A DNA stretch of 59,006 nucleotides, taken from NCBI GenBank assembly GCA_028865345.1, contig JAGWKL010000011.1:1-59006 (forward strand). The letters are read 5' to 3'. The notes under the pieces were generated by a model that saw only the letters and a program-made list of their open reading frames with translations, made no database searches and was not told the origin of the DNA. The position numbers and the translations under genes were made by a program. Shown piece by piece: positions 4,940-53,858 of the stretch (position 1 is the first letter of the stretch; every line of letters begins with the position of its first letter). The DNA is from Candidatus Omnitrophota bacterium (lineage in GTDB: Bacteria; Omnitrophota; Gorgyraeia; Zapsychrales; Fredricksoniimonadaceae).

Positions 4940-7900
4940 ATGACCAATAATAACCCCATATCCCGGACTATGCCGTTAAAAGACCTGTTTTTCAGGCCGG
5001 GGTCTTTTTTTGTCCTTTTATCCTTTATGTTGGTCAATGTTTTGGGACCGCTGCCTGCGGCCGGGGCCGAAAATTTTTATTTGCCTGCGCCGGGTGTGAT
5101 GGTGCATTTAAGCCCGCCGTTCAATCCGCCCATACTCGAGGGCATCAAGGTGCATCCGGACAATCCTTTTCTCTTTGATTTTATCCTTAATAAAGGAGAC
5201 GGCAACTTAAGCCGAAATGAGCTTAAAGACGAAAGCGGCCGTTTGGTCAAATATTTTCTTGCCGGCATCACCATTCCCCAAAAAGATCTGTGGGTCAACT
5301 TAAGTCCGTATGAGGGAAATCATATCATCCCGCAGCGTTTTGGATTGACGGAGATGGGCAGGGACTTGTTGGCGGAGGATTACATGCTCAAGCAGATAAC
5401 GGCCTCTCTCATCTATCCGGGAGGGACGATAGGCAGGGAATTTTGGAAGAAGGTGTATGCGCAGGCGGAGAAACGTTACGGGACGACGGATGTAGCGGTC
5501 AATACGTTTAACAAGGTGTGGATAGTGCCCCAAAAGGCGGTTGTCTACGAAAATGCAAAAGCCAAGACGGCATATGTGGAGGAAGCGAAACTCAAGGTGA
5601 TGCTCGAGCGGGACTATTTATCGCTTGAAAAGCATGAGGGTATCCAGAACCCTTCTGCCCGGGTCAAAGAGACAAATCAATTAGGCGGCCGGATCGTCCG
5701 TGAGATCGTGATCCCTGAATTAACGAGGGAAGTCAACGAAGACAAAAATTTTGCCCGTCTGCGGCAGGTCTACAATTCATTGATCCTTGCCACATGGTAC
5801 AAGAAGAAGATCAGGGACAGCATACTGGAAAAAGTTTATGCGGACAAGGGCAAGGTGGCGGGTGTCGGCTATGGAGCCGATGATGTCGAGGTCATTTACC
5901 AGCGCTACCTTCAGGCTTTCAAGAAAGGCGTTTTTAACTATATTCAGGAAGAAACCGATCCGTTGACCCAGGAGCGTACTCCGAGGAAATATTTTTCAGG
6001 CGGCGTCCAGCTTCAATTGGCGGATTTTGCCCGGGCATCTGAGGGCGAGACCAATCTTGGTAAAACGCCTTTTCAAATAACCGGCCGGGTACCGGCATCC
6101 TTGGATTCTCCTGAGAATGTCGATGTGACCGTGAATATTGATCCTGCCCAGGAGACTCAGCCCGAAGGCGGCGCGATGCAAACCATCAGGCTGAAAGATT
6201 TCATCACCCAATTTATGAAAGAAGTAAACTATCCGCCGGATTGGCTGCACAGGACCGACTTTAGATTCAGCAATTCATTAAGTCTTACCCTCAATGATCC
6301 GGATGAATATGAGGAGGTGGTGGGGAATTTAAAAACCCTGTTGAGTGAGTTTATCCCCAATGCGTTTCAGGAACAAAAGCAAGGGCGGGTGGAGATAGAG
6401 GTACAAAACTCCGTTCTTTTTATAAAAAATAAGGGCCGCATCGATTGGCAAAAGGTCCTGAAAAGATACTATGGCCTTATAGACAACAATCAATTGTATG
6501 TGGCTAAAAATGAAAACGGTTCTGTGCAAGATTTTGTCCATAAGATTTATCTCCCCCGGCATACGCTGGTGAATGCCTACCAGCCGGCTACAAAAGCGGA
6601 AGTGGATGAATTATTTAAAACCCCTAATGGACGCTTAACTTTATTTTTCGATCGCAGGGGCGGGATTTCATTCGGCGAAGGCAAGAATGAAGGCAAGCAG
6701 AGAAACGGCGGGCTCGGCCTATATTTGGCAAGGTCAGTCGGCAGGGCCTTTTTGGGGGCGGAAATCAGTTTGGCCGATGACGGGGCCAAATCAAATGAAG
6801 TGGTCTTTGAGGTCCGCTTCTCCGACAAATCGCCTTTTACCTTCGTCGACAGGGCAATGTCGACTTTAGACAACCGGCGGAATCTGCTCAATGACCGGCC
6901 GATGGGTTCCTCCGAGAAATTGTCTTCTTTTGAGCTTGGGATCAGCGAATTCTTGGACAGGGTGTTTCGTCATCACGCGAAAGCTTTATTAAGTTTCAAC
7001 ACAAGAAACCAGAAAAATGAGATCATCAATTTATTAAGAAACCATTACGAGATGCAGGAAGCCAGAGACTTTGTGGTCATCAAAACGGAAGCAGATTTGG
7101 AAAAAGTATTTTCCGGGCCGTGGCAGGACCGGTATGGTTCTCAGGTGGAGGTCTATGTTGCCAGCGGAGAAACCGAAGATAATAAAGAACAGGTCAAGTT
7201 GACCGATAAAGTCGCTCAAAAGATGGCTGAGATTTTCGGGTTGTCTTACACCGATTCGTTGGAGACCGTCAATCTCACGGCCCAAGACCAGTACAGGTTA
7301 TTTCAAAACATCGATCCTTTGACAGGCTTGCCCGGCCGCTTACAGTTTGATTCTTATTATATGAATTTCATGAAAAACAGGCAGGCCGTTAAAAAAGTGG
7401 TGGTCATGTTGGATATCGATCACTTTAAAAAAATCAATGATCAGCTGGGGCATCAAGTCGGAGATGAGGTCCTGAAGAAGTTTGCCGCCGTATTAAGAAA
7501 ATCCATCAGGCCGTCAAGCGGCGATATGGTGTTTCGTTTTGGGGGGGAAGAATTCGTTGTTCTCATGCCTTTTGGCGGTACAGTGGAAGAGTTAGACGCC
7601 AAATTCAAACAGATCCTAAAAAATATTCAGGAGGAGGTCTATAAAGGCATCCCCGCGTTAGAAAGTCAAGACTGGCGGGTCACCGCAAGCCTGGGAGCTT
7701 TGTGGATAGAAGGTTCGATGAGTGAAAAACACAGGAGCATTCCGGATAAGCGGTTGGAGCAAATGGTTCTTGGGGATTGGAAAAGGGAAGTCTATCCCAA
7801 GGTTGATGAGTTATTATATTCTTCCAAAAAGGAAGGTCGAAACAGGGTGACTCTCGGGCCTGCACTGCAATTGCGCTTGGATGAAGAGTTAAAAAAGCAG

Positions 7901-8396: not shown

Positions 8397-9635
8397 ATGA
8401 TGCAAATAATTCTGGGCGTTGTCATGGGATATGTGATTTTCTTGGCGGTTTTCAAATTAATCGGTGTGGGTCTGTTATTTATAGAACAAGTTGTTATATG
8501 GTTGAAAGAGCAATCAGAATCTCAGCGTGCTAAACAACAAGGATACCGTGTGCCTGATACAAAAGCAAAACCTGAAAAACAACTTGGCCTAATAGCCGCG
8601 ATTGTTTTAGGCCCGATGGTGGGGATAATTGCCGGCGTTGTGTTCCATTATTGGGATATCGCACATGAGGTGATCATTTTCAGTTTTCTTACGTTTTCTT
8701 TTTTTTTCCTTTTATCCCTTTTTAATAAAAAATCCGGAATTCTTTTCATTATTTTATTTATTCTCAGTTGGTTTATAGTCTACAAAATGTATGATAATCA
8801 GGCACGGAATATTGTAAATAGAATTAACAACGGACAAATCAGTAACATTAATCAACTTATTGATTATTTAGGCTGGCCAAACTATGACGTACAAGTAAGC
8901 GCGAATAATGCGTTATTAAAGATCGGAAGGCCTACTGATGATGCACTGATCGCCGCTTTAAGGAACCCCAATCCGGATATCAGACAGGCAGCAATAGGTT
9001 TATTGTATCTCAATAAGGCTACTCGTGCAATAAAACCTCTTATTGCAACTTTAAATGATCCTGATTATATGGTTCGAGATTCTGCTGCTTCTGTTTTATT
9101 TTCTTTTAAACAGTCAACTGCAACGGAATATGCTTTAAAAACGTTGTTTCAATCCTTAAAGAGTTCGAATTCTAACGAACGCAGCGAAGCTGTTTGTAAT
9201 TTAAGTTTGGTTAAAGATCCTCATGTCATTGAACCTTTAATCCATTCATTAAAAGATCCTGATGCGAAAGTAAGGGATATGGCTGCGAGTACGCTGTATA
9301 GAATCAATGATCCCCGTATCGTTAAGGCCCTTATAGGAGTCGCCTTGAAGGATCCAAGTTTAAATGTTCGGTCTGCAGCGATGAGCTCTTTGGGGAATTT
9401 AGGGAATCCCATGGCGGTCCAACCGCTTATTTCAATCTTAAAAAGTCCTGATAAACTCTTAAGAAAGTCTGCTAGCGATGCATTGGGTCACATCAAAGAT
9501 CCACGTGCTGTTGGGCCCTTAATAGCTGAATTGAACGACCGGGAAGGAATTGTCCGAGATTCTGCTGCTGATGCATTGTATAATTTTGATGACCCAAGAG
9601 CAAAACAAGCCTTAAGAAATTATAAGAGACATTAA
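8397..9635 (+). CDS. membrane-anchored HEAT-repeat protein
   Basis: A 412-residue protein. It has a first hydrophobic helix (about residues 3-30), a Lys-rich linker, and three further helices (about 64-130). From about residue 155 to the end follow seven or eight HEAT/PBS-lyase-like repeats, recognisable by recurring RPTDDALIAALRNP, VRDSAASVLFSF and DPRAVGPLIAEL patterns spaced about 31 residues apart. HEAT repeats form protein-binding solenoids; the partner is unknown. AAGGAGAAA sits directly before the ATG, with an adjacent second ATG at 8400. It is AT-richer than the gene before it. Confidence 0.8.
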   Translation: MMQIILGVVMGYVIFLAVFKLIGVGLLFIEQVVIWLKEQSESQRAKQQGYRVPDTKAKPEKQLGLIAAIVLGPMVGIIAGVVFHYWDIAHEVIIFSFLTFSFFFLLSLFNKKSGILFIILFILSWFIVYKMYDNQARNIVNRINNGQISNINQLIDYLGWPNYDVQVSANNALLKIGRPTDDALIAALRNPNPDIRQAAIGLLYLNKATRAIKPLIATLNDPDYMVRDSAASVLFSFKQSTATEYALKTLFQSLKSSNSNERSEAVCNLSLVKDPHVIEPLIHSLKDPDAKVRDMAASTLYRINDPRIVKALIGVALKDPSLNVRSAAMSSLGNLGNPMAVQPLISILKSPDKLLRKSASDALGHIKDPRAVGPLIAELNDREGIVRDSAADALYNFDDPRAKQALRNYKRH

Positions 9636-9711
9636 ATTTCTCACAATTTTGCTCTAATTGATAATCTATCACGGATTTCGCATATCGTCCTTCATTTGTA
9701 TCAAGGGATCC

Positions 9712-9885
9712 ATGATACCGTCACATACGGTAAATTATGTGCTCTATATTGTGTTTCTCCTAGGGCCGTTGGGACTCATCGGCGCCATAGGCTACCATTT
9801 CGGAGGGGATTTTTTCCCGTTTCTTGCCATGAAGGACACGTTGAGAGAGTATAGGTTGAGGTTCAGATCTGGCACTTTTGTTTGA
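9712..9885 (+). CDS. possible small membrane protein (doubtful)
   Basis: A short frame of 57 residues from ATG 9712, with one hydrophobic stretch (VNYVLYIVFLLGPLGLIGAI) followed by a polar, Arg-rich tail. Upstream in-frame TTG 9658 would lengthen it. The ribosome-binding site is poor (AAGGGATCC is too close to the ATG). It could be a small membrane protein, a gene remnant or chance. It lies between the HEAT-repeat and TPR genes on the same strand. Confidence 0.3.
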   Translation: MIPSHTVNYVLYIVFLLGPLGLIGAIGYHFGGDFFPFLAMKDTLREYRLRFRSGTFV

Positions 9886-9989
9886 TGATGGGTAAATGAC
9901 TATTCCCATCGTCATAAACCGGCTTGAACTAGCGATAATTGAATAATTGAGGGGGCGTTGTCTCTGTCCCAGAGAGGTATCTACTAACT

Positions 9990-10727
9990 GTGTATATACC
10001 GTTTTACATCTCTTTGATTTTTCAGGTTGCCTGCGCTATTCATGCTCTTAAGAATGGCAAGCCCCAATGGCTCTGGATCATCATTTTGTTTCCAGTCATC
10101 GGTTGTCTCGTATATTTGGGCATGGAGGTTTTGCCATATTTAAGGCCTATGACGGACAGCGTCGCTGCCAATGCAACTAATTTGGTGCCTGCGTTTACAA
10201 TCAACAAGTTGAAGGCGGAGTTGGAGGTTTGTGATACCGTCAAGAACCGACTGACATTGGCCGCAGCTTATGCAGGGGCCAAGCAGTACGACCAAGCGCT
10301 GGAAGTTCTCGGGCCTTGCCGTAAAGGGCCGTACGGAACAGATGCCGTTGTTATGGGGCAATTTGCTGAGTGTCACTTTCAGAAGGGCGAATATCAAAGC
10401 TCGAAAGAATGCCTTTTGGCCATTAGCGGCTCTTCTAAAAAATTTGAAAACCAGAAACTGCACCTACTATATGCCAAGGTTCTGGAAAAGCTTGGTGACA
10501 AAGAGGCAGCGTTAAAGGAATATGAGGCGCTGATGCAATATTTTGTTGGAGAAGAAGCCCGCTGCCAGTACGCGCTTTTATTAAAAGAAGATGGAAGAAC
10601 CCAAGAAGCTCGCAACATCTTTGAAGCCATTGTGAAAAAGAGGCGAATATCCCCTCCATTCTACCGGAGTGAGCAAAGAACTTGGTTCAACATCGCCCAA
10701 AATGAGTTGAATGCTGGAGTTAGATAG
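9990..10727 (+). CDS. membrane-anchored tetratricopeptide-repeat protein
   Basis: A 245-residue protein. Two N-terminal transmembrane helices (about residues 3-20 and 26-48) contain the PLDc_N-like pattern W-L-W-I-I-I-L-F-P-V-I-G-C-L-V-Y. After a linker, TPR-like repeats run from about residue 75 to 240 (NRLTLAAAYAGAKQYDQALE, then ECHFQKGEYQSSKECL, then AKVLEKLGDKEAALKEYE). These proteins usually scaffold membrane complexes; the partner is unknown. The start is GTG 9990, with AGAGAGG rather far upstream. A very strong terminator follows at 10921. Confidence 0.75.
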   Translation: MYIPFYISLIFQVACAIHALKNGKPQWLWIIILFPVIGCLVYLGMEVLPYLRPMTDSVAANATNLVPAFTINKLKAELEVCDTVKNRLTLAAAYAGAKQYDQALEVLGPCRKGPYGTDAVVMGQFAECHFQKGEYQSSKECLLAISGSSKKFENQKLHLLYAKVLEKLGDKEAALKEYEALMQYFVGEEARCQYALLLKEDGRTQEARNIFEAIVKKRRISPPFYRSEQRTWFNIAQNELNAGVR

Positions 10728-10920
10728 TAATTGCAGCAAAAGCAGGTTTTTGTTTTATTGAAAGCCCTGGCTTTCCTGCCTTTTTCTGTCCGGGAAGCAA
10801 ATGGCAGGGAGTGTTAATGACGAAAGGTCTTAATGTAACTTTTGAACCTACTTTTTCTGCTAGAGGGCCAGTAGCAGAAAAACCAAGATCTGTTTAATTC
10901 AAATAAATTATTACTACTTT

Positions 10921-10969
10921 ATTACAACTTCATTACAACTGTTTGTAATGAAGTTGTAATTTTTTATTT
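10921..10969 (+). terminator. strong AT-rich hairpin terminator
   Basis: Eighteen-base perfect inverted repeat, ATTACAACTTCATTACAA (10921-10938) and its complement (10943-10960), with a CTGT loop, followed by a T-rich run (10961-10969). It matches an intrinsic terminator for the TPR gene about 190 bases upstream. The unusually long perfect stem could equally be a DNA cruciform, and it stands at the head of a series of inverted repeats. Confidence 0.75.
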
Positions 10970-10975
10970 CTGTAA

Positions 10976-11093
10976 CCCTCCCATTGGCAAGGGGTTTTCG
11001 CGATGAAGCCTGCGAAACCGCGCCAGACCACTCTCCCCCAACCATAAAGCGAGGGGGATAGTGGTCTGCCGCTACCCCTTGCCAATGGGAGGG
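10976..11093 (+). repeat. 118-base cruciform element with three-way-junction geometry
   Basis: Outer arms of twenty bases pair perfectly (10976-10995, CCCTCCCATTGGCAAGGGGT, with 11074-11093). Inside are two hairpins: GGTTTTCGC/GCGAAACC (about 10993-11019, one bulge) and a sixteen-base stem with one mismatch (11024-11039 with 11052-11067; CAGACCACT/AGTGGTCTG). It has no reading frame. Size and symmetry recall palindromic MITE/ERIC-like elements or a structured RNA, but I see no target duplication. It is read here as a structured element of unknown function upstream of ardA. Confidence 0.65.
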
Positions 11094-11099
11094 GTCGGT

Positions 11100-11345
11100 C
11101 TATAAGAGGATGATTTTTGGTCCAGTAGGGGGTTTAGGGTATAGTCAAGGTTATGGTTCTAAGGAATGAGTTGACTGTGGTTGGGTGTTATTGATTTTTG
11201 AGGGTTGGATTTGGTTGTTTGGTTTTATGGGTGATTTTAGGTTTGTGTTTTTTGGGGTGGATCTTAAGGTCTTGTTTTTTGGAGTTCTGATTATGGTTTT
11301 CTTCCTTCTTTTTCTGCCAGTCGTTTAGTTTGGTTTCGCCAGGTG
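11100..11345 (+). other. G/T-rich, C-poor non-coding stretch
   Basis: No gene is seen. The + strand is almost devoid of C: I count three C residues in 11161-11280 (120 bases), with long runs of T and G such as GGTTGGGTGTTATTG. Such strand asymmetry favours single-stranded DNA or an unstructured RNA spacer over a coding function. It lies between two palindromic elements and upstream of ardA. Confidence 0.5.
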
Positions 11346-11421
11346 GCAATCTCTGGCGCCTGTGGGTTTCTTATCTTCATTAGTCTTCTGAAAAAGAACT
11401 GCTTTCAAGCGGGACTTTCCT

Positions 11422-11567
11422 TCTTTCGGTTCTGGGTTTTTTAATTCTGACATACGTGTCAAGGGCTACGTCCCGCGATGTTCTGCGGGCCTTGCAAGTT
11501 GCCTCCGCTTCGCTCCGGCAACCCTTGACACGTATGTTTTTTTATTAAATCAAAAAGAACCGAAAGA
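11422..11567 (+). promoter_or_regulatory. nested inverted repeats overlapping the ardA ribosome-binding site
   Basis: Outermost arms are TCTTTCGGTTCT (11422-11433) and AGAACCGAAAGA (11556-11567). Inside are sixteen-base perfect arms ACATACGTGTCAAGGG (11450-11465) and CCCTTGACACGTATGT (11522-11537), followed by a T run. Two inner hairpins are CCCGC/GCGGG (11472-11476/11485-11489) and GTTGCC/GGCAAC (11498-11503/11517-11522). The right outer arm runs into AAAGAGG, the Shine-Dalgarno of ardA. The structure can therefore hide or expose that site, terminate upstream transcripts, or act as folded single-stranded DNA. Confidence 0.65.
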
Positions 11568-11576
11568 GGTGTTGAA

Positions 11577-12092
11577 ATGAAGACAACGCGAACAACAAGG
11601 GTGTATGTAGCGTGTTTGGCGGCTTATAACAACGGTATCCTGCATGGGGAATGGATTGATGCCAACCAGCCGGCAGAGGCCATCCATGAGCAAATCAAGA
11701 AAATGCTGGCCCAAAGTCCGATTGCAGGGGCCGAGGAATGGGCTATCCATGATTATGAGGGCTTCTGTGACTTGCGTTTATCAGAGTATGAGTCCATTGA
11801 AAAGGTCGCGGAAATGGCCGCCATGATTGAAGAGCATGGCGAAGCCTGGGCAAAGTTCGCGGAATATGAGGGCATTGAATACGCCACTTTAGAGCGGTTT
11901 GAAGAGGCTTTTGCCGGAGAATGGGCAAGCGAGGAGGCCTTTGCGGAGGACTTGGCTGAAGATACAATGGAAATACCGCAGCATTTAGCTTTCTATATCG
12001 ATTACGAGAAGCTGGCCCGGGATCTGTTTATTAACGATTACTTCTCTGCAGATAGCGAAAACGGAACAGTATACATTTATCGGCGGCTTTAA
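11577..12092 (+). CDS. ardA: antirestriction protein ArdA
   Basis: A 171-residue, strongly acidic protein with the ArdA N-terminal signature RVYVACLAAYNNGILHGEW and then EEWAIHDYEGF (about residues 59-69), followed by Glu-rich helices. ArdA is a DNA mimic that blocks type I restriction enzymes. It is usually carried by conjugative elements in the leading region, where it protects incoming single-stranded DNA as it becomes double-stranded. AAAGAGG lies eight bases before the ATG and inside an inverted repeat. The nearest conjugation genes in the window are 33 kb away, so this copy may mark a second or degraded mobile element, or the far end of one large element. Confidence 0.9.
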   Translation: MKTTRTTRVYVACLAAYNNGILHGEWIDANQPAEAIHEQIKKMLAQSPIAGAEEWAIHDYEGFCDLRLSEYESIEKVAEMAAMIEEHGEAWAKFAEYEGIEYATLERFEEAFAGEWASEEAFAEDLAEDTMEIPQHLAFYIDYEKLARDLFINDYFSADSENGTVYIYRRL

Positions 12093-13913: not shown

Positions 13914-14742
13914 GGATTTCAGGTATATTTACGGCCCCGTTCAGTCCTGGCGTATGGGCAAATCGCTGGGAATTGATCCTCTTTCGGATAAGGTGAAAGT
14001 ATGCAATTTAGATTGTGTATATTGCCAATTGGGTAAAACACGCCATCTGACCAATGAACGCAAAGAGTATGTTGACGTAAGGGAAATCACGGCAGAGATT
14101 GCCAGATTTTTTGAAGTGGCAGGGAAACATACTCCATGTTTTACGGAGAAGATCGATTTTATCACCTTTTCCGGTAGAGGAGAGCCCACCCTGGCAAAGA
14201 ATTTAGGCGAAATGATATTGGCCCTGCGGGCGATAAGAGATGAGAAGATCGCTGTGATTACCAATTCAACCTTGATGCACTTATCTGACGTTCAACAGGA
14301 TTTAGCATTGGCTGACGTGGTTATGGCAAAGCTTGATGCCTTCAATACCGAGTCATTCCTAAAGATCGACAAACCTATAGAGGGTATCAGCTTTGAAAGG
14401 ATTGTAAAAGGGGTCAAAGAGTTTAAGGGGCGATATAAAGGCAGGTTGGCGCTTCAGATCATGTTTATGGGACAGAATCAAGAATATGCCCGCAAGATTG
14501 CCAGCTTGGCCAGAGAGATCATGCCTGACGAAATTCAGATCAATACGCCACTTCGCCCTTGTGGGGTAAGGCCATTGAATAAAGGCATTATAAAGCTGAT
14601 CAAATCACATTTCGACGGTTTACCTGCGGTCACTGTTTATGACCGTGATATTGAGGAAACCAGGCCTTTCAATGTCAGGGAGACCATCAAAAGACACGGT
14701 AATTTTAAAAATAGGGTAAGTCAAGGGACGGTCAATGTCTAA
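13903..14742 (+). CDS. radical SAM protein (COG0731-like)
   Basis: A 279-residue radical SAM enzyme with CNLDCVYCQLG (CxxxCxxC-type cluster ligands near residues 34-41) and the SAM-binding FSGRGEPTLAKN (about 89-100), where GEPT is typical. It starts YGPVQSWRMGKSLGIDP, a pattern seen in small uncharacterised radical SAM proteins related to the wyosine-synthesis group. There is no SPASM domain and the substrate is unknown. Its start overlaps the hemerythrin end by 11 bases, so translation is probably coupled. Confidence 0.78.
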   Translation: MDIEDFRYIYGPVQSWRMGKSLGIDPLSDKVKVCNLDCVYCQLGKTRHLTNERKEYVDVREITAEIARFFEVAGKHTPCFTEKIDFITFSGRGEPTLAKNLGEMILALRAIRDEKIAVITNSTLMHLSDVQQDLALADVVMAKLDAFNTESFLKIDKPIEGISFERIVKGVKEFKGRYKGRLALQIMFMGQNQEYARKIASLAREIMPDEIQINTPLRPCGVRPLNKGIIKLIKSHFDGLPAVTVYDRDIEETRPFNVRETIKRHGNFKNRVSQGTVNV

Positions 14743-45146: not shown

Positions 45147-45911
45147 ATGCGCGTTATTCCACAAAAAATACATATCTTGAGGTTCATTGGGGAACAGGGA
45201 ATTGTCAGCGTCTTTGATGTAGCCCGCCACTTATTCCAATCCGAAAAATCAGATGTTGTTCGTATCACCATGCACCAGCTTGGAGTTGCCCATAGGCGAT
45301 ATCCAGGCATACGGTTTGGTGTCTGGTATATCGACAAGCCTCAGCTATATGATACTTTAAGGGACTATTTTCCCGATCTGCCCAGATTTTCTGTCCGTCC
45401 TGTTTTTCACGATCAAATCCCGCATTACTTGGAGCTTAATCACATTCGCACCACTTTTGAACAATCATCTAAGTTCATTATCGAACAGTGGTGGTCGGAA
45501 CAATACATCCGTTCACTTGAACCTGAGGAACGATTTTCTTTTGCCAATACAAAAATTCCTGATGCCATTTTCTGGCGCAAGCGCCATGACGGCAGTCTTC
45601 AGAAATACTTTCTTGAATATGAGCGTTCCTCCAAAGACAGGGAGCGCTACGAAGCCATTTTGTGCTCTTACTCCAAGCGCCAGGATGCGAGAAGCCGAAA
45701 TGTCATCTATATCTGCCAAACCCCTTATATTAGAGAAAGGCTCGCTACCATTGAATCCAAATTGGCACGTGGCGGCAAACTGGAAAGGGCGGGGATTTGT
45801 TTTCAGTTCATCACCCTGGAAGGTTTCTATAACAGTTATGGTCTTAATCAATTAAAGGAGGGAGAACGCAATGAAAATGCTCGAACAATGGTTGAAACTG
45901 CCGCAGTTTAG
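45147..45911 (+). CDS. replication-relaxation (Replic_Relax) family protein
   Basis: A 254-residue protein. Its N-terminal winged-helix-like region reads LRFIGEQGIVSVFDVARHLF. A restriction-enzyme-like core follows with PDAIFWRKRHDGS (D in the PDxxF position) and FLEYERSSKDRERYEAIL (about residues 155-172). This matches Replic_Relax proteins (PF13814) found on conjugative elements, often near relaxase genes. No relaxase is visible nearby. AAGGA precedes the ATG. It is the first gene of the transfer operon. Confidence 0.7.
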   Translation: MRVIPQKIHILRFIGEQGIVSVFDVARHLFQSEKSDVVRITMHQLGVAHRRYPGIRFGVWYIDKPQLYDTLRDYFPDLPRFSVRPVFHDQIPHYLELNHIRTTFEQSSKFIIEQWWSEQYIRSLEPEERFSFANTKIPDAIFWRKRHDGSLQKYFLEYERSSKDRERYEAILCSYSKRQDARSRNVIYICQTPYIRERLATIESKLARGGKLERAGICFQFITLEGFYNSYGLNQLKEGERNENARTMVETAAV

Positions 45912-46167
45912 ATGCTTTCTGGTTTTGACGCTCTTTCTTGTATTATCCGATCGGCCTGCCTTCGCGGATTTGGTCAGTGACATGAGCCAGCTGCAAAGTA
46001 ATGTGACGATGATAAGCCAGCCTTTGGCCATAATTTTTCTTATCGTGGCTGGTTGGCAGAAGGCCATGGGCAACGCCCAACTGTTTGTCCTGGCGTTGGT
46101 GGGAACGGTTGTCATGTTTGCGGCGCCGCAGTTGGTCAATTTTATCAGTTCCGCGTTTGGGAATTAA
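45871..46167 (+). CDS. virB2: VirB2/TrbC-type pilin
   Basis: A 98-residue prepilin. A long signal peptide (about residues 1-32, ending AFA) is followed by two hydrophobic helices (about 47-65 and 68-92; IIFLIVAGWQKAMGNAQLFV), the standard VirB2/TrbC layout. It builds the conjugative pilus. GGAGGGAG lies eight bases before the ATG. It overlaps the Replic_Relax gene by 41 bases. Confidence 0.82.
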   Translation: MKMLEQWLKLPQFRCFLVLTLFLVLSDRPAFADLVSDMSQLQSNVTMISQPLAIIFLIVAGWQKAMGNAQLFVLALVGTVVMFAAPQLVNFISSAFGN

Positions 46168-46169
46168 TT

Positions 46170-48950
46170 ATGAGGACCTATTCGGAAAAATGTTTAAGGA
46201 ATTTGCAAGACAGGATGATTGTCTTCGGTTTTGAGGGATGGGACATCTTCATGGTCTTAGGAGCCGCCTTAAGTCTGCAAATTTTAAAGGTCAATGACCT
46301 TGTTATTTGGGGGATTTGCGGGCTTTTGAGCGGTTTCCTTATTTTGATTAAGAGGGGCAAACCAGCCAATGCCACTGAACATTATATGGATTGGTTTTTC
46401 AAGGACAAAAGATTCACCGCCTTTGAACAGACCTTCGCCCACACGATTAAAGGCCGTGAGCTTGATATCAGGCTCAACGGCCTGCAATCACTATTGCCGT
46501 ATAGTCATTTTGAGGACGGGCTCCTTGTATTTAAGGACGATTCCATGTCCGTTGCATATGAAATAACCTGCCCAAGCTTGGACAATCTTTCCAGCGATGA
46601 ACTGATCGCCTATTCACAAAAGATCGAAACCTTCCTTAATGGCTTATCCGAACGTGCCACGTATCAACTTTTCTTTACCCTCGACAGCGACTATTCCAAA
46701 GAAATCGCCGAACATAAAATCATCAAGGCCACTCATCCTTTAATCAAAGCCATGCATGCTGAACGTATCGGACGCTTTGAAGCTTTGGGTAAGGAGAAGC
46801 TTTTCAGGCGCAGGCGATGTTATTTGCTGGTCAATTTCTTATCTGTTCCCCTTGGCCAGAAGCAGTTTAATTTCTTCAAGAACGTCAGGAAATTAACCCA
46901 AGCCCAGGTGGATGAGGCCAAGAAGGACTTTCGTCTGGTGCTTAACAATATAGAGGAAGGAATTCATGGGGCGGGTTATGGGACAAGGAGACTTGATGAA
47001 TATAGGCTTATGTGTCTTATGTACAAATATCTTAATCCCGACCGCCTGAAGCAGGGCATTGACTGTCCCAAGCCCCGTGAAAACGAACTTTTCGTAAAAC
47101 AAATATGTTGTTCGGATCTTTATTTTGATGAGGCAAGAGGCGAATATGCCCATTTCGGGGGATTTTATCATAAGTACATATCCCTTAAAGTCCTGCCGGA
47201 GGCGAGTTTTCCGGCAATGTTGGCCAGACTTGACTGGCTGTCTTTTCCCGAATTCGATGTGATCGCCAATTTCGAGGCTCCAGAGAAGGAATGGGGCAGG
47301 AAAAAAATCGAAAGCATGAGAAAGCGCGAATACGGTAATATGCAGGGCTTGTTTGGGATCATCAATAAGGATGCCCAGACCAAGGTGGGGCAATATGAAT
47401 ACCTCTTAGAAGAAATCCAGCAAAGCAATCAGAAGCTTTTCCGCGCCCAACTGACCATCCATGTCTACGCCGAGGAGTTTGAAGAGATAAAAAAGAAAAC
47501 GGCGGAGGTGATCCGTTTGTTTGCCTCGCTAAACGGCACAGAAATGCACGATGAACGTTGGGGTTCGGTTAAGCCCATTTTTGTCAGTTGTCTTCCCGGC
47601 TGGACCAAGGAATCATCGCGTTTTGTCCTTTTAAAATCCGCGCACCTGGCGGACCTTATGCCTTTGTTCTCTGAATTCAAGGGCAGCGGCCGGGCCGAAT
47701 GTTTGTTTTACAACACAACCCACGGCCTGGCTTCCTATGATCCCTTTTGTGAGGAGCTTTCGGCGTATAACACGGTTGTGGTGGGTGCGACAGGAAGCGG
47801 CAAGAGCTTTACCATAAATCAAATCATCAACCAGTACAGCAAAAACGACCCTATTGAAATCTTCATTGATATTGGAGGTTCCTATAAACGCCAGGTCCTC
47901 TTAAAAGGCGGTGAGTACATCGACCTAGGGCTAAAGGAGAAGTTTACCATCAATCTCTTTGAGCTTTCGCAGGGGAAAAGGCTGTGTGAATTCAGCGAAG
48001 AAGAACAAAATGAAATACTTATCATTAAGACCAAAACTATCGAGCAGATGATAGGGGGAGTGGCGCGCTTCAACGGTTCTGATCAGATTGTCGAGGATTA
48101 TATCTTTCGTTCCATCCAAAAGCTTTATCGCATGAAGGATTATCCGGTTCTAAGCGATCTTAAAGAGGCCCTTAAAGCCATTGCTGAAATGCAGAAAATC
48201 ACCCAGCCGTTTTATGAGCCTGTCGTTGGCCTTTTGGGCAATTGGCTTCAGGGCGGGCAATACGGCAATTATACCGATGGCAAATCAACCATCTCGCTTG
48301 ATAAAAGTGTCATTTGTTTTGATCTAAAGGGTTTGGAGAAGTTTGAGCGTCTGCAGGCATGCATGTTAACGATTGTGACCAACTTCGTCTGGGGCAAGAT
48401 CATGAGCCAGCCGGGACGTCGTAAGTTTGTCATCTTTGATGAATGCTGGAAACTTCTTTCAACACCCGAGGCTGCCAAATTCATAGCGGAATGTTACCGG
48501 ACCTTCCGTAAATACGGGGCCGGGGCGATTTCCATCACGCAATCCTTGAATGATTTTCTCTCCGGCGGTCTGGAACATGCCATCCTGGGCAATTCCAACA
48601 CCCGTTTTATCCTTCGCCAGAACTCTACACCGGCCATCAAGTCCATTGTGGATTATTTCGATTACAACGAGCAGGAGAAGCGCCTTATCGAATCCTTGAA
48701 AATCCAAAAGGGTGAATATTCGGAAGTGTTTTTCTCACAGTCGAAACAGTTGGAACATATCAGCTCCAAGATGGTCATCTGTCCCACAGCCATCGAATAT
48801 TGGGTGGCAACGACAGATGCCATGGATCTTAACTATTACGAGAAAATCAAGAAGGAAAATCCGCAGATGGATATGTATACGATCCTGCAGCTCTGCGTAA
48901 AAGATTTTCCACGCGGGGTTGGCTATAAGGACAGCAAGAATACAAATTAA
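46170..48950 (+). CDS. virB4: VirB3-VirB4 fusion, conjugation ATPase
   Basis: 926 residues from ATG 46170. The N-terminal 65 residues hold two hydrophobic helices resembling VirB3/TraL; the rest is a VirB4/TraC ATPase. Walker A GATGSGKS is at 539-546, Walker B is near KFVIFDECWKL, and SITQSLNDF and NSNTRFILRQNS follow. VirB4 powers pilus assembly and substrate transfer at the inner membrane. The extended frame back to 46053 overlaps the pilin gene and is not used. Confidence 0.9.
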   Translation: MRTYSEKCLRNLQDRMIVFGFEGWDIFMVLGAALSLQILKVNDLVIWGICGLLSGFLILIKRGKPANATEHYMDWFFKDKRFTAFEQTFAHTIKGRELDIRLNGLQSLLPYSHFEDGLLVFKDDSMSVAYEITCPSLDNLSSDELIAYSQKIETFLNGLSERATYQLFFTLDSDYSKEIAEHKIIKATHPLIKAMHAERIGRFEALGKEKLFRRRRCYLLVNFLSVPLGQKQFNFFKNVRKLTQAQVDEAKKDFRLVLNNIEEGIHGAGYGTRRLDEYRLMCLMYKYLNPDRLKQGIDCPKPRENELFVKQICCSDLYFDEARGEYAHFGGFYHKYISLKVLPEASFPAMLARLDWLSFPEFDVIANFEAPEKEWGRKKIESMRKREYGNMQGLFGIINKDAQTKVGQYEYLLEEIQQSNQKLFRAQLTIHVYAEEFEEIKKKTAEVIRLFASLNGTEMHDERWGSVKPIFVSCLPGWTKESSRFVLLKSAHLADLMPLFSEFKGSGRAECLFYNTTHGLASYDPFCEELSAYNTVVVGATGSGKSFTINQIINQYSKNDPIEIFIDIGGSYKRQVLLKGGEYIDLGLKEKFTINLFELSQGKRLCEFSEEEQNEILIIKTKTIEQMIGGVARFNGSDQIVEDYIFRSIQKLYRMKDYPVLSDLKEALKAIAEMQKITQPFYEPVVGLLGNWLQGGQYGNYTDGKSTISLDKSVICFDLKGLEKFERLQACMLTIVTNFVWGKIMSQPGRRKFVIFDECWKLLSTPEAAKFIAECYRTFRKYGAGAISITQSLNDFLSGGLEHAILGNSNTRFILRQNSTPAIKSIVDYFDYNEQEKRLIESLKIQKGEYSEVFFSQSKQLEHISSKMVICPTAIEYWVATTDAMDLNYYEKIKKENPQMDMYTILQLCVKDFPRGVGYKDSKNTN

Positions 48951-48978
48951 CCGGTTTTTAAAAGGAAGGGACAAAGTT

Positions 48979-49395
48979 ATGAGCCTCAATTCCGTTAATG
49001 TGATGGGTAATTTAACACGGGACCCGGAAATCAAGCAAATCTCCTCAGGCAGGTCAGTATGCAATTTGTCGATTGCAAATAACCGCACATACCTCAAAGA
49101 GGGCGAGAAGGTAAACGAGGTTTCCTATTTCGATGTTGAGGTCTGGGGCAAGGCTGGCGAGAACTGCGCGAAGTATTTGACCAAGGGAAGCGGTGTCATC
49201 GTGGAAGGCAGGCTCAAACAGGAACGCTGGGAAAAGGACGGCAAGTCCTTAAGTCACATCAGGGTCACGGCCAATATGGTCCATTTCCTGCCCAAGAGGC
49301 GCAAAAACGCAGCGGAACCAGTAGTCGCTGCTGAAAACCCGTCCGAGCAGGAGACTGTTCTTATCGATGGTGAAGATGGGGCATGGCAGCAATAG
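48979..49395 (+). CDS. ssb: single-stranded DNA-binding protein
   Basis: About 138 residues from ATG 48979, an OB fold: NSVNVMGNLTRDPEI, SVCNLSIANNRTY, SYFDVEVWGKAGENCAKYL, GSGVIVEGRLKQERWEKDGK. The C terminus is acidic (LIDGEDGAWQQ), less tidy than the DDDIPF tip of chromosomal SSB. Plasmid-type SSBs like this protect incoming ssDNA. GGAAGGGAC precedes the ATG. Confidence 0.92.
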   Translation: MSLNSVNVMGNLTRDPEIKQISSGRSVCNLSIANNRTYLKEGEKVNEVSYFDVEVWGKAGENCAKYLTKGSGVIVEGRLKQERWEKDGKSLSHIRVTANMVHFLPKRRKNAAEPVVAAENPSEQETVLIDGEDGAWQQ

Positions 49396-49419
49396 AAAGA
49401 TTTTCTTGAAAGGATACCT

Positions 49420-49827
49420 ATGGCGAACAAATACATTCTTTTCATTGGGCTGCTTTCTGTGCTGTCTTCAGGTTGTACCTTGCGTGATGCAGGATATACC
49501 CTTGGCGGTGCGGCCGCCGGCGGCGGCATAGGCTATGCCATTCATCATGACGCCAAGGATGCCGTTATAGGCGGCCTGGGAGGTGCGTTGGTTGGGAATC
49601 TTGCGGCCCAATGGCAGGATAAGATCGACAAGAACAAGAAGGACAAGAGCTATAAGGACGGCTATAACCAGGCCAGGCTCGACATCGCCAAGCAGAATTG
49701 GAATGACAATACCGGCAAGGATGCGGACGGGCCCCAGCCCCTAGAAAGAACGGTATTGGTCCCCAAAGATAAAGAAAATGGTGTCATCTACGATCAAAGG
49801 GCTGTTGCCGTTGAGGAGGATGAATGA
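49420..49827 (+). CDS. lipoprotein with glycine zipper, T4SS cluster
   Basis: A 135-residue protein with lipobox LSSGC (Cys at about 19), then Gly-rich GGAAAGGGIGYAI and GGLGGALVGNLAA segments of the glycine-zipper type, and a charged C-terminal half. It is probably an outer-membrane-associated lipoprotein of the transfer machinery, possibly entry-exclusion or TraV-like. Position between ssb and the VirB5-like gene is the main evidence. Confidence 0.7.
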   Translation: MANKYILFIGLLSVLSSGCTLRDAGYTLGGAAAGGGIGYAIHHDAKDAVIGGLGGALVGNLAAQWQDKIDKNKKDKSYKDGYNQARLDIAKQNWNDNTGKDADGPQPLERTVLVPKDKENGVIYDQRAVAVEEDE

Positions 49828-49828
49828 T

Positions 49829-50575
49829 ATGAAAAAAATACTACTTTTGACTATTTTTGGGTTTCTTGGGCTGAGCCTTCCCGCCTACGCCTACGTCTTT
49901 ACCGATCCCGTCGTACTCGCCGCCATCCTGCAGCAAACCGCCACCCAAACAAGCGAGCACTTAAGCCGGTTGGCCCAAGAAATCCAAGCCGTTGAAACCC
50001 TTCAGCAGGAACTGACAACCTCCAATGGCCTATTGCAGTTGGCCCAAGCCAACGCACAGGGAGCCGATAATTTACAGGTGATGGCCAATTTCCAGAACAC
50101 CATTCTGTCGGCCAACAGTGTCCTTCAAGCCATCCAGTCGGACCTTAACGCCAATCAGGATCTGTCGGGTCAGTGGCAGACGGTGTTCGGCTCTCTTACT
50201 CCCTTTATCCAAAACACCAACACGGCTTTTACCAATATCGACGCCTCAGACAAACTCAATGCGGCAAGTTACCTGGTGGGAGACAGCTACCAGAACCTTT
50301 ACCAGCAGAATGCCGCAACCGTTGCCCAGTTTGTCGCAAGCGCCAACCAGGTCAGCGAAAAAGGCGCCCTTAGACAGATCGCCCAGGAGATGGCGGAACT
50401 GATTCAAATGGAAAACAATGTCATTTATCTTCTCTCCCAAGAGTTAAAAGGCCAGAGTGTCGAGTCAGCCAATGACAATCTAAAACGCAAGGAGCAGATC
50501 GTTCAAGTCCAGGATGAGGGTCAGGGGGTAAGCGACTTTATGGGTATTGTAGATAACAACACCTTCAAGATATAG
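49829..50575 (+). CDS. virB5: VirB5/TrbJ-like periplasmic protein
   Basis: About 248 residues from ATG 49829. A signal peptide (KKILLLTIFGFLGLSLPAYA) is followed by long Gln/Ala-rich helices (coiled-coil-like, about 40-230), the usual TrbJ/VirB5 shape. VirB5 caps the pilus or touches recipient cells. GAGGAGG is nine bases before this ATG, so it is preferred over 49820. Sequence identity to VirB5 is low; the call rests on fold features and gene order. Confidence 0.65.
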   Translation: MKKILLLTIFGFLGLSLPAYAYVFTDPVVLAAILQQTATQTSEHLSRLAQEIQAVETLQQELTTSNGLLQLAQANAQGADNLQVMANFQNTILSANSVLQAIQSDLNANQDLSGQWQTVFGSLTPFIQNTNTAFTNIDASDKLNAASYLVGDSYQNLYQQNAATVAQFVASANQVSEKGALRQIAQEMAELIQMENNVIYLLSQELKGQSVESANDNLKRKEQIVQVQDEGQGVSDFMGIVDNNTFKI

Positions 50576-50578
50576 CCT

Positions 50579-51481
50579 ATGGATACAATCATTCAAGCGG
50601 TCCAAATCGATTTGCCCAATAGCCTCAATGCCGGGCATATTATGCTGGTCTCGCTTTTTGTTGTGGCGGTATTTGTCCGGTATACGGGGCTGTTAAGCCA
50701 TCAAGTCAATTGGGCGGACGTGGTTGTAAGGCTTGTCATCGGCTTTGTGCTTTTGCAAAACTACACGGCCATCATGGACGCAACCCGTACCATCATCGCT
50801 GATGTTGATACAACCATCAACCCCACCCAGGATTATGTCGCCCAATATGCCGCCATGAGCCAGAACATCCAGCAGCGCCAGCAGAGCATGACCCGGCAAA
50901 GCATCCTGACTCAGATAGGCAACGGGTTCTTCGGGCCTTTTTCCTTACATAATCTCATCATCAACCTGTCTTTTATCTTTTATGCGATTGTGTCCAAAAT
51001 CATGGAGGCTGTGCGTTATTCCATGACCGCGATTTTATACAAGATAGGTCCGGTCTTAATTCCGTTGATCCTGTTTGAGTCAACAGGGCATATCGTCAAG
51101 GGCTGGTTTGTAAGCTATGTCTCGGTTCTTTGCTGGCCCATTCTTTGGCACATTGTTTTGGCCATTGCGGTCAATTTAAGCAACCAGCAGGTGGCCTCCG
51201 GCAACATCGTTGAGCAGTTTGCCGCCATCAATTTTGCGGTGTGTTTTGTTCTGGTTTTTTCGCCGTTTATCATCAACAGCCTGGTTTCCGGTATAGGTGC
51301 CGGTTCCTCGGCGGGGTTAGCCGCGCTCACGTCTACTACTGCAACAACCAACTGGATGGGGACAGTCGGCCAGGCGGGGTTTAGATCAACCACAGGTTTT
51401 ATGAACGATAAGTTGTCACAGCTTACCCAGAATTCCACCACCTCATCGGGTAAATTTAAAGACACCATGTTGGGCACTTAA
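50579..51481 (+). CDS. virB6: VirB6/TrbL-like inner-membrane protein
   Basis: A 300-residue protein with about six membrane helices (for example residues 20-35, 43-60, 120-140, 155-175, 185-205 and 220-245) and a Gly/Ser/Thr-rich tail (SGIGAGSSAGLAALTSTTA). This is typical of TrbL/VirB6. It forms the inner-membrane channel. It begins three bases after the preceding stop. Confidence 0.82.
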   Translation: MDTIIQAVQIDLPNSLNAGHIMLVSLFVVAVFVRYTGLLSHQVNWADVVVRLVIGFVLLQNYTAIMDATRTIIADVDTTINPTQDYVAQYAAMSQNIQQRQQSMTRQSILTQIGNGFFGPFSLHNLIINLSFIFYAIVSKIMEAVRYSMTAILYKIGPVLIPLILFESTGHIVKGWFVSYVSVLCWPILWHIVLAIAVNLSNQQVASGNIVEQFAAINFAVCFVLVFSPFIINSLVSGIGAGSSAGLAALTSTTATTNWMGTVGQAGFRSTTGFMNDKLSQLTQNSTTSSGKFKDTMLGT

Positions 51482-51497
51482 ATCGGAGAGAAAAATT

Positions 51498-52094
51498 ATG
51501 AGCGAGCTTGTTTTCAATCGGGTCATATTGGAGCGTAACAACCGCACCTTGATGATTATCTCTTTCGTCTCGTTGGCGCTTAATTTTATTTTGGTTTTGA
51601 GCATGCTGCGGGTCTTCCATAGGCCGCCGTTGGTGGTATTCGCCACGGACGGGAAACTCACCGTCCTTAAAACCAAGGATTTGGGCATCAATGAGACCCT
51701 GCTTAAGGACTTTGTCAGGCTTGTCGTCGGCCAATACCTTTCCTTTAGTGTCAACTCGCTGCCTCACCAGATTGATTCCATAAAGGCCTATTTGGGCCCC
51801 AAGCCGATTCAGAATATTCTGCAGTCCTATAAGGACAATCAAACTCTTATTCAAAGTGAGAACATCTCCCAGCAATTCATTGTTGATACGATTACTGTAA
51901 CAAAGAAGTCAAGCCCGTATTGGGTCAAGGTCACTGGCCTAAGCAATATTCATACGACCGACAGCGATAAGAACCTTCCCATGACCTATGTTTTTGAAGT
52001 CACCAGGGTCAAGTCAACACAGACGAACCCTTACGGATTTTTGATGACTGATGTGGTCGAAAAAGACAAATCTGAAAGCAAAGGACCAAGGTAA
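51498..52094 (+). CDS. virB8: VirB8/TraE-like protein
   Basis: A 198-residue bitopic protein. A single membrane helix (LMIISFVSLALNFILVLSML, about residues 18-37) is followed by a periplasmic domain of the VirB8/TraE type (LVVGQYLSFSVNSLP, then VTGLSNIHTTDSDKNLPMTY). It links the inner-membrane complex to the core. GGAGAG precedes the ATG. Its stop and the next ATG share one base. Confidence 0.8.
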   Translation: MSELVFNRVILERNNRTLMIISFVSLALNFILVLSMLRVFHRPPLVVFATDGKLTVLKTKDLGINETLLKDFVRLVVGQYLSFSVNSLPHQIDSIKAYLGPKPIQNILQSYKDNQTLIQSENISQQFIVDTITVTKKSSPYWVKVTGLSNIHTTDSDKNLPMTYVFEVTRVKSTQTNPYGFLMTDVVEKDKSESKGPR

Positions 52095-52918
52095 TGAAAA
52101 TCATCCTATTGATCGTATTCTTGCTTTTTTCATGTCCCTTGTGGGCCGAAGAGGGTAGGTATTTACATGCCGATAAGGTCTTCTATGAAACCCCTTTGGC
52201 GCAAGATGTGATGAATGTCCACTTGGCTTTGGGCTATTGCACAGTCTTGCAGTTTCCAGAAAAACCCATCCTGGTGACTGTAGGCGATAATTCCTTGGTC
52301 CAGGTTGAGATCCCCAAAAACTCTAAAAGTGTGGTTATAAAGCCTCTTCAGGATGCAGGAGAAACAAACCTTTTTGTTTTCACCCCCAATCACAGGTTTA
52401 ATTACAACGTGATCATTGCAGATGCCGCGAAGGTCGATTATGTCCTGGATACCAAGTCCTTTAATCCAATGGGACAAAAGGCCAGGGGCCACCTTTCCGT
52501 TGAAAGATTTATCAAATTGAGCAGGCAGTACGCATTCCTTGAAACCCACAATGCCATCAATGACCGCGAGTTTAGGCGAAAAAAGATATCCTGCGAGTGT
52601 TCATATCCTGATTTTGACGTCAATTTAATTGAAGCCTTCAGCCGTAATGATCCTAATTATTTGGTTATGCACATTTCGGTGACCAATACTACGAATGATG
52701 AAGTTCTCGATTTGACCGAACAGAAAACAGTTATTTTGGTCAACAATCATAAGTTCATTCCCCAATACGTTTTATTCGACAATGACCAACTTTTCCCTGA
52801 TAAAAGTACCGACGGATGGCTGGTTTTGGAGAACAGCTATATTTCTTTGGACAATGAATTTTCTTTAAGCCTTGGCGTAGGGGAGAAAGAGTATGTCTGT
52901 AAACAATCTATTTCTTAG
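52094..52918 (+). CDS. virB9: VirB9/TrbG/TraK-like protein
   Basis: A 274-residue periplasmic protein. A signal peptide (KIILLIVFLLFSCPLWA) precedes a VirB9-like first domain (VTVGDNSLVQVEIPKNSKSV, NLFVFTPNHRFNYNVII) and a second beta-rich domain. It pairs with VirB10 and VirB7 in the outer-membrane core. It overlaps the VirB10 gene by 26 bases. Confidence 0.82.
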   Translation: MKIILLIVFLLFSCPLWAEEGRYLHADKVFYETPLAQDVMNVHLALGYCTVLQFPEKPILVTVGDNSLVQVEIPKNSKSVVIKPLQDAGETNLFVFTPNHRFNYNVIIADAAKVDYVLDTKSFNPMGQKARGHLSVERFIKLSRQYAFLETHNAINDREFRRKKISCECSYPDFDVNLIEAFSRNDPNYLVMHISVTNTTNDEVLDLTEQKTVILVNNHKFIPQYVLFDNDQLFPDKSTDGWLVLENSYISLDNEFSLSLGVGEKEYVCKQSIS

Positions 52919-53855
52919 AACGGATAATGCGGGCAGGCGCAGGCCGACGGTTTTGACCTTCTGTTTAATAGTAGCTTTGGTCTTTTTTTCGTTCTTTATT
53001 TCTAAGAACAAAAAGCCGGTGGGGAAAACAAAGACGAATCAGGCCATTATCAAAGCCAGGAACCTGACCGCGGCTGCTCCAACCAATACCGTACATCTTC
53101 CGGCTAATCCTTTAAGCCGGGAAGGTAAGGCATTCAAATTGGATTATAAGCAGGTATTACAAGCGCCGTCGCCAACCCCACGGCCTACATTTTTCCAGGG
53201 AGGCTTCCCCGGACCTACACCGCAACGTTCCGTCCCCCTAAACACTAAAATGATCGTCTTTGATAATACCAGTAATTATCAGAGCAATTGGGTTGTGCCG
53301 CTGGGAAGCATGGTCAAATGTATTTTGATCCATAACATTGTCACCAATAATTTTCAGGCGCCGGTCATTGCTCAGGTGTGGCAGGACTTTTATTTTGACG
53401 GCAAGCTGCTTTTACCCTTTGGAACACGCATTTATGGTACAGCCTCGGCCGGCAGGGAAAGGGACAGGGTTACGGTTTCATTCCATGACATTGTTTTTCA
53501 GGATGGCAAGGATATCAAGATGAACGCCATTGGCTTAAGTCAGGACGGCTCCGGCGGTCTGACAGGAACGGTTATTAATGACGCCACAAGGAAGACGATT
53601 TGGGCTATGGCCATGAATTTATTAAGCGGGATGGCCTTGGGATTTCAGCAAACGCAGACAAATTTGGTAACGGGAGTGGACCAGGTTGAGTCCAATGCCA
53701 GAAACGCTTTGCTTAATGGCGTGGCCAATACCTTCCAGAAACAGGCCCAGACAACACAACAGGACATAGAGAATTCCAAAGGTTACGCAATCGTTTTAGC
53801 CGGAAGTGAGCTGATCGTATATTTCAATCAGAAGGCAGATGTCCAGGGAGGATAA
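52893..53855 (+). CDS. virB10: VirB10/TrbI-like protein
   Basis: A 320-residue protein. A short cytoplasmic N terminus and a membrane helix (TFCLIVALVFFSFFISK, about residues 23-39) come first. A Pro/Thr-rich linker (PSPTPRPTFFQGGFPGPTP) follows. The C-terminal domain shows the TrbI pattern PFGTRIYGTASAGRERDRV and MNAIGLSQDGSGGLTG. VirB10 spans both membranes. GGGGAG precedes the ATG. Confidence 0.88.
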   Translation: MSVNNLFLRTDNAGRRRPTVLTFCLIVALVFFSFFISKNKKPVGKTKTNQAIIKARNLTAAAPTNTVHLPANPLSREGKAFKLDYKQVLQAPSPTPRPTFFQGGFPGPTPQRSVPLNTKMIVFDNTSNYQSNWVVPLGSMVKCILIHNIVTNNFQAPVIAQVWQDFYFDGKLLLPFGTRIYGTASAGRERDRVTVSFHDIVFQDGKDIKMNAIGLSQDGSGGLTGTVINDATRKTIWAMAMNLLSGMALGFQQTQTNLVTGVDQVESNARNALLNGVANTFQKQAQTTQQDIENSKGYAIVLAGSELIVYFNQKADVQGG

Positions 53856-53858
53856 CTT

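Follow-up and report, generated by a model that had tools for sequence, protein, structure and literature searches.

A predicted MOBC-type origin of transfer and a candidate single-strand promoter of ardA in an element of an uncultured Omnitrophota bacterium

Genes and Features of the Locus

The window, the whole stretch of 59,006 nucleotides analysed here, is a contig of a 2.1 Mb genome of Candidatus Omnitrophota. It contains a gene for the anti-restriction protein ArdA (11577–12092, plus strand; PF07275, E = 9.5e-44) and, farther along the same strand, a set of conjugation genes. The latter comprises a MobC-like (MOBC) relaxase (45147–45911) with a winged helix-turn-helix (HTH) domain and a PD-x(17)-ExE motif; a pilin-like protein encoded at the head of the transfer operon (45871–46167), assigned from its position and from a layout resembling that of locus L139; and a conjugation ATPase of the VirB4/TraC type (46171–48950; P-loop_TraG 2.5e-32 and TraC_F_IV 7.8e-12 in a scan beginning with the TTG at 46053). 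These are followed by the type IV secretion system (T4SS) components TrbL, TraE-like, VirB9 (CagX), and VirB10 (TrbI) (50579–53855), with the TrbL, TraE, and CagX matches scoring under the curated cut-offs, and by a TraG/TraD-type coupling protein (53974–55896; TraG-D_C 9.5e-12). Genes for AbiEi and AbiEii come after the coupling protein, beyond 55896. The presence of relaxase and T4SS genes at 45147–55896 indicates that the window is part of an integrative and conjugative element (ICE) or contains one.

Genes for nitrate respiration and anaerobic metabolism (nrdD, moaA, narGH, and nnrS) are located at 12192–44906. Their position between the oriT described below and the relaxase gene suggests that the encoded NrdD, MoaA, NarG/NarH, and NnrS may be ICE cargo. 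The spacing between oriT and relaxase is 34 kb in the window and, likewise, 10–53 kb in the genomes G010, G027, and G236 (C10).

The 650 bases leading into ardA consist of two separate modules, an oriT (module A) and the leader of ardA (module B). The earlier note on this DNA had treated the whole stretch as a candidate single-stranded promoter, origin or structured leader. For its hairpin, cruciform, and C-poor strand the term origin holds, in the sense of oriT, while promoter does not apply to these parts.

Structure and Conservation of Module A

Module A lies on the plus strand at 10910–11093, with a C-poor strand continuing to about position 11330. It opens with the iterons (10910–10960), the predicted binding sites of the relaxase, in which direct repeats of about 11 bp start at 10910, 10921, and 10932 and inverted copies follow. 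The perfect 18-base hairpin described in the earlier note is present, with arms at 10921–10938/10943–10960, and is furthermore the end of this 11-bp direct-repeat series (ATTACTACTTT ATTACAACTTC ATTACAACTGT and so on). The best autocorrelation lag in the window is 11 (0.73; 0 of 200 shuffles, p < 0.005), and a lag of 11 or 12 is the best in 20 of 24 loci, the repeats being weak in some copies from Elusimicrobia and Bdellovibrionales. The iterons are located upstream of the Y-shaped inverted repeat and close in an inverted copy. Their letters vary between elements (ATTACAA, GAACAAA, GGCACAAA, GGTACAGA, and others), with ATTACAA being common to the window and to loci L037 and L038. A transcription terminator was rejected as a reading of the 18-bp hairpin, given that the T-run is missing in several copies and that the iteron layout is general. 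At locus L039 (4979–6060) three tandem oriTs, carrying three distinct iteron sets, are found upstream of a large serine recombinase gene adjoining miaB, which suggests accretion of elements at one site.

The Y itself (10976–11093) is 118 nt long and is predicted to bear the nic site. Its outer stem has perfect 20-bp arms (10976–10995/11074–11093) enclosing two hairpins, hairpin 1 (10996–11017) and hairpin 2 (11020–11072). Folded as DNA, the segment 10970–11096 reached z = −12.8, with none of 200 shuffles equally good, confirming the three-way structure noticed earlier. The C-depleted strand that had also been pointed out (11094–11330) is real as well: 150-nt windows with at most 8% of C or G start only at 11081–11181 in the whole 59-kb contig, and the strand is devoid of structure (z = +0.9). 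C-free runs occur at the matching position in other copies, extending over 142–150 nt in L038, L088, and L090 and about 65 nt in the Enterococcus plasmid pAM373 and in L167.

Relatives of module A are present in the same genome and in congeneric genomes. The consensus Y built from seven copies has 43 pairs, 22 of which show compensated double changes, and a covariance model of the Y (R1) matched 10 of the 32 genomes of the family. A pattern search with hairpin 2 found matches in genomes of Elusimicrobia and of Bdellovibrionales/Oligoflexia; a model of this hairpin (R2) matched 25 of 384 genomes from Omnitrophota and, in the phylum to which L086 (an Elusimicrobia record) belongs, 8 of 199. Part of the sequence invariance of hairpin 2 among copies from different phyla comes from the search pattern, in which the outer stem and the iterons played no part. 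Across 19 copies of hairpin 2, 95.3% of cells are paired, with 74 double-sided and no one-sided changes, a result equalled by none of 500 shuffles. Pairing in diverged relatives, on which the earlier note had staked its proposal, is thus strongly conserved for this module.

Among the 304 paired cells of these 19 copies no G-U pair was found. RNA helices usually pass through G-U intermediates, and the absence of such pairs indicates that the constraint on hairpin 2 acts on DNA pairing and not on RNA. Consistently, the Rfam 15 covariance models gave no match in the region at gathering score, with only sub-threshold miRNA matches, in L039. A search of IMG/VR with the hairpin pattern found no match. 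The 5′ arm of hairpin 2 (A5 columns 11–28) carries a C at every second base (GACCnCnCnCnCnC) up to a WACCATA loop, and a mismatch at a fixed place; the alternating invariant C is partly enforced by the search pattern.

Association with MOBC Relaxases and Mobile Elements

Fifteen proteins of the relaxase family retain a PD...ExE...K motif, and 14 of the 15 members match NF041423, the window protein being under the cut-off (31.7 of 200 bits). PF13814 (Replic_Relax) alone missed most of these relaxases, which were detected by the A6 profile together with NF041423. The AlphaFold model of the window relaxase is a confident one (pLDDT 89.5); in a Foldseek search with it, restriction endonuclease EcoO109I and MarR-type folds came on top, at a best E-value of 0.018 that is not significant. 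A tblastn search of plasmids with the relaxases gave no match.

In all 15 linked pairs, module A lies on the same strand as a MobC-like relaxase gene and upstream of it. The distance between the two ranges from 45 bp to 53 kb and does not exceed 0.4 kb in nine pairs; the 34-kb spacing in the window is a point against the proposal. The same neighborhood is seen at Elusimicrobia loci. In G039, G053, and G236 module A directly precedes a complete T4SS operon (relaxase–pilin–VirB4). The product of the first gene in this operon is a winged-HTH protein with a match to the replication-relaxation profile of the MobC family.

In three other genomes (G001, G003, and G004; 51–94% complete) module A adjoins xis, integrase or large serine recombinase genes, and no MobC-like gene was found in the genome. 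These copies look like mobilizable elements borrowing a relaxase. A role of the window ICE as a helper for the elements at L037 and L038 would fit their common ATTACAA repeats.

Some of the copies have a distinctive setting. In L037, a reverse transcriptase fragment (6673–7128) comprising the C-terminal part and a VTG motif of retron type is found just upstream of the oriT, adjoining AbiE-like toxin-antitoxin genes as cargo of a mobilizable element; a retron origin of module A was rejected, this reverse transcriptase being one cargo gene among many. A degenerate oriT copy, made up of iterons and one arm of the Y, the 5′ arm, is found directly after a tRNA-Ser gene (L002:1501–1584; G000:C41:145249) and is likely the scar of a lost element. 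Loci L038, L039, and L003 contain a further conserved hairpin (CCGGCACACTG..GGAGCAT..ATGCTCC..TGTGCCGG) about 250–300 bp past the Y, near the oriTs of several elements that have no ardA.

Identity of Module A

Model R2 was trained on copies from Omnitrophota, Elusimicrobia, and Bdellovibrionales only, with no Enterococcus sequence. Its top match in the whole of pAM373 is a repeat at 14425–14492 (E = 2.3e-6), with 12-bp iterons on one side and the MOBC relaxase gene on the other. R2 detected the same repeat (E = 1.7e-10) in NZ_CP028838, another plasmid of Enterococcus, beside a different 11-bp iteron array; in both plasmids a C-poor stretch of about 65 nt comes after the repeat. The profile of the relaxases linked to module A also detected the relaxases of two Enterococcus MOBC plasmids, pAM373 included (4.9e-8 and 1.1e-12). 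R2 gave no match in CloDF13 (best E 1.2), and BLAST found no significant similarity between the window relaxase homologue at L139 (9913–10653) and the pAM373 relaxase. Recovery of the pAM373 site by an Enterococcus-free model is the strongest test of the MOBC oriT assignment.

Three other identities were weighed for module A. Both halves of the 650 bases give strong RNA folds and their orientation matches that of ardA, as would be expected if the whole were one structured regulatory RNA upstream of this gene. The earlier note had named a large regulatory RNA as its alternative. For module A it is ruled out by linkage, pair statistics, and copies without ardA: most module A loci lack this gene and sit beside relaxase and integrase genes, the lack of G-U pairs is unlike RNA families, Rfam offers no counterpart, and the same element sits in the oriT region of pAM373 with the same layout. 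A single RNA spanning both modules is accordingly very improbable. Equally improbable is an integron-like attC site or a MITE-like dispersed repeat serving cassette recombination. Several copies per genome, their tandem arrangement in L039, and the toxin-antitoxin and defence genes between copies speak for it; but no GTTRRRY/RYYYAAC core sites were seen by inspection, the copies adjoin the tyrosine integrases, large serine recombinases, and MOBC relaxases of whole elements, and the locus-specific iterons and the pAM373 match are explained by an oriT.

A replication origin or single-strand origin (sso), with the proximity of the relaxase reflecting rolling-circle replication of the excised element, deserves somewhat more consideration and is still improbable. 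Rolling-circle origins, too, have iterons and a conserved hairpin loop, the name of PF13814 refers to replication-relaxation, and rolling-circle replication of an ICE can begin at an oriT. Against this, the layout and the top R2 match coincide with the oriT region of MOBC plasmids, and module A stands directly before T4SS operons. Module A is therefore very probably an oriT of the kind used by MOBC relaxases (pAD1 TraX, pAM373, CloDF13 MobC).

The ardA Leader

Module B is a hairpin on the minus strand at 11422–11567, a candidate single-strand promoter when the bottom strand folds. The nested 12- and 16-base arms that the earlier note had followed into the ardA ribosome-binding site are present (12 bp, 11422–11433/11556–11567; 16 bp, 11450–11465/11522–11537). 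The segment 11412–11575 folded as DNA has z = −8.6, with 0 of 200 shuffles equally good, and the leader RNA has z = −8.0. The Shine-Dalgarno sequence of ardA, AAAGAGG (11563–11569, plus strand), lies within the 3′ arm of the outer stem and is base-paired when the full window leader is folded as RNA. An extended −10 element, TGTCAGAAT, is encoded on the minus strand (11444–11452), in the arm that faces ardA once the bottom strand folds.

The module is located ahead of all seven intact-looking Omnitrophota ardA genes examined (the window, G010, G027, G039, G053, G201, and G236), these coming from 6 genomes of 384 plus G027, in which a truncated ardA fragment (L105) was excluded. It also precedes two other small genes in G010. 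At L088 (5279–6464) two small genes (159 and 132 aa), both preceded by a module B leader, are found between oriT and ardA; neither has a Pfam match, and they are candidate new anti-defence genes.

Exactly one extended −10 of the form TGnYAnAAT is found per leader, on the bottom strand in nine of nine and on the top strand in none; the chance is 1–5% per leader, and the nine, being related by descent, are not nine independent events. In the L106 leader the element is perfect (TGGTATAAT). The central stem occurs in two diverged subtypes, CATACGTGTCAAGG and CCACC..TCAAGGG, and is kept in both; double-sided changes affect only 3 of 45 pairs, among the four closest copies. Conservation of pairing in relatives thus holds in part for module B.

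No −35 element was found at the usual distance in the nine leaders: a −35-like TTGA lies 0–7 nt from the −10, vs. about 17 nt. Module B therefore rebuilds no canonical −35/−10 pair. The promoter of Frpo/ssi type envisaged in the earlier note agrees with the nested arms and with the bottom-strand −10 of all nine leaders, and departs from them in the missing −35. A blastn search of 72,556 plasmids, as a check for similarity to known Frpo/ssi, returned no match to the region, in line with the earlier remark that it has no known Frpo homology.

Transposase genes hide the Shine-Dalgarno sequence in read-through transcripts, and module B could act in the same manner, as an RNA-level leader concealing the ardA Shine-Dalgarno while a conventional promoter is located elsewhere; module A would be an oriT all the same. 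The outer stem takes in the Shine-Dalgarno in eight of nine leaders, the window leader folds strongly as RNA, and the top strand has G-U pairs at some stem positions, all of which an RNA-level leader accounts for. Such a leader does not account for the conservation, across two stem subtypes, of a −10 directed away from the gene. The leader of the second small gene in G010 (orf2) bears directly on this question: its stem differs and its Shine-Dalgarno is outside the stem, but the bottom-strand −10 is retained, pointing to promoter activity as the main function. The exclusively RNA-level role is rather unlikely, and the two functions are compatible, not mutually exclusive. As judged from these sequence features, module B is probably a single-strand promoter for ardA, possibly with a role in hiding the ribosome-binding site in addition.

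Proposed Function in Transfer

Taken together, the region is likely the transfer-start control region of an Omnitrophota ICE, combining the oriT of module A with the ardA leader of module B as a single-strand promoter. The relaxase would bind the element-specific 11-bp iterons and nick within the conserved Y, at a site predicted to lie in 10976–11093. The nicked strand, probably the bottom one, would leave through the T4SS encoded at 45.9–55.9 kb. In duplex DNA the extended −10 is directed away from the gene; once single-stranded, the bottom strand would fold, and this −10 would turn towards ardA. In this fold the −10 would be in the 3′ arm, the template would run through the 5′ arm and then the gene, and the RNA made would be sense ardA. 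RNA polymerase could thus read ardA early from the incoming strand. Transcripts begun within the 3′ arm would lack the 5′ arm, leaving the Shine-Dalgarno free, while a read-through mRNA from duplex DNA would fold over it and hide the ribosome-binding site of ardA. Module B would be silent as duplex DNA.

The promoter logic of module B requires transfer of the bottom strand. In Frpo systems the folded transferred strand is the template, with its −10 turned towards the gene (PMC9849209, PMC11541004). Module A and ardA are on the same strand in all five linked cases, and it follows that the strand with the iterons 3′ of the Y would be the ardA template, as in those systems. The direct repeats of pAD1, described as lying downstream of nic (PMC12857230), fit a bottom-strand nick, provided that "downstream" refers to the direction of the transferred strand: the bottom strand has its iterons 3′ of the Y. 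Assuming bottom-strand transfer, ardA would be on the leading side in G053 and G236 and would be the last part to arrive in the window, G010, and G027. Late entry is a real tension for the single-strand promoter. ArdA is required only once the DNA turns double-stranded, and late entry is therefore not fatal to the proposal.

Whether module B represents a new family of single-strand promoters is an evenly balanced matter. Such a family would be unrelated in sequence to Frpo/ssi, would combine an extended −10 and a hidden ribosome-binding site as a double lock, and would express anti-restriction genes only during DNA entry, alongside a MOBC oriT in uncultured phyla. If the ardA leaders are indeed single-strand promoters, early anti-restriction expression from incoming single-stranded DNA reaches well beyond enterobacterial plasmids, and such promoters can be built from different parts.

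To our knowledge, very little has been described of conjugation in uncultured phyla like Omnitrophota and Elusimicrobia, and we know of no MOBC oriT previously described in them. R2, representing one DNA hairpin, is a searchable signature that ties the oriTs of three or more Gram-negative phyla to the small number of MOBC oriTs known from Enterococcus, in which specificity and relaxase binding reside in the variable repeats. The signature further marks elements that have the same oriT and no relaxase, which may hitch-hike.

Comparison with Known Systems

The relaxase of the window resembles the MOBC relaxases CloDF13 MobC and pAD1 TraX (PF13814/NF041423) in its winged HTH, PD...ExE...K motif, and match to the MobC-like profile, and differs from them in its sub-cut-off NF041423 score. 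TraX of pAD1 is a winged-HTH protein of a restriction-endonuclease-related family and binds five direct repeats 70–120 bp downstream of nic (PMC12857230).

Overall, the layout of module A is that of the oriTs of pAM373 and, by description only, pAD1 (oriT2) of Enterococcus faecalis: element-specific direct repeats of 11–12 bp, a conserved Y-shaped inverted repeat, a C-poor stretch after the Y, and a co-oriented gene for a winged-HTH relaxase. Francia and Clewell reportedly found in 2002 that the pAD1 and pAM373 oriTs have the inverted repeat in common, with differing repeats setting specificity. The window differs from both plasmids in the primary sequence of iterons and outer stem, in its Gram-negative-type T4SS, and in the presence of ardA and 33 kb of cargo between oriT and relaxase. 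In pAM373 (L147), an AcrIIA9-family anti-CRISPR gene and an SSB gene (8756–11478) are found on the relaxase side of oriT and co-oriented with it, the same topology as that of ardA in the window.

Module B shares with Frpo/ssi of F and ColIb-P9 a large hairpin directly upstream of an anti-restriction gene and a −10 that faces the gene only when the template strand of the gene folds. Unlike these promoters, it has an extended −10 with no normally spaced −35, it has no sequence match to them, and its ardA gene is not always on the predicted leading side.
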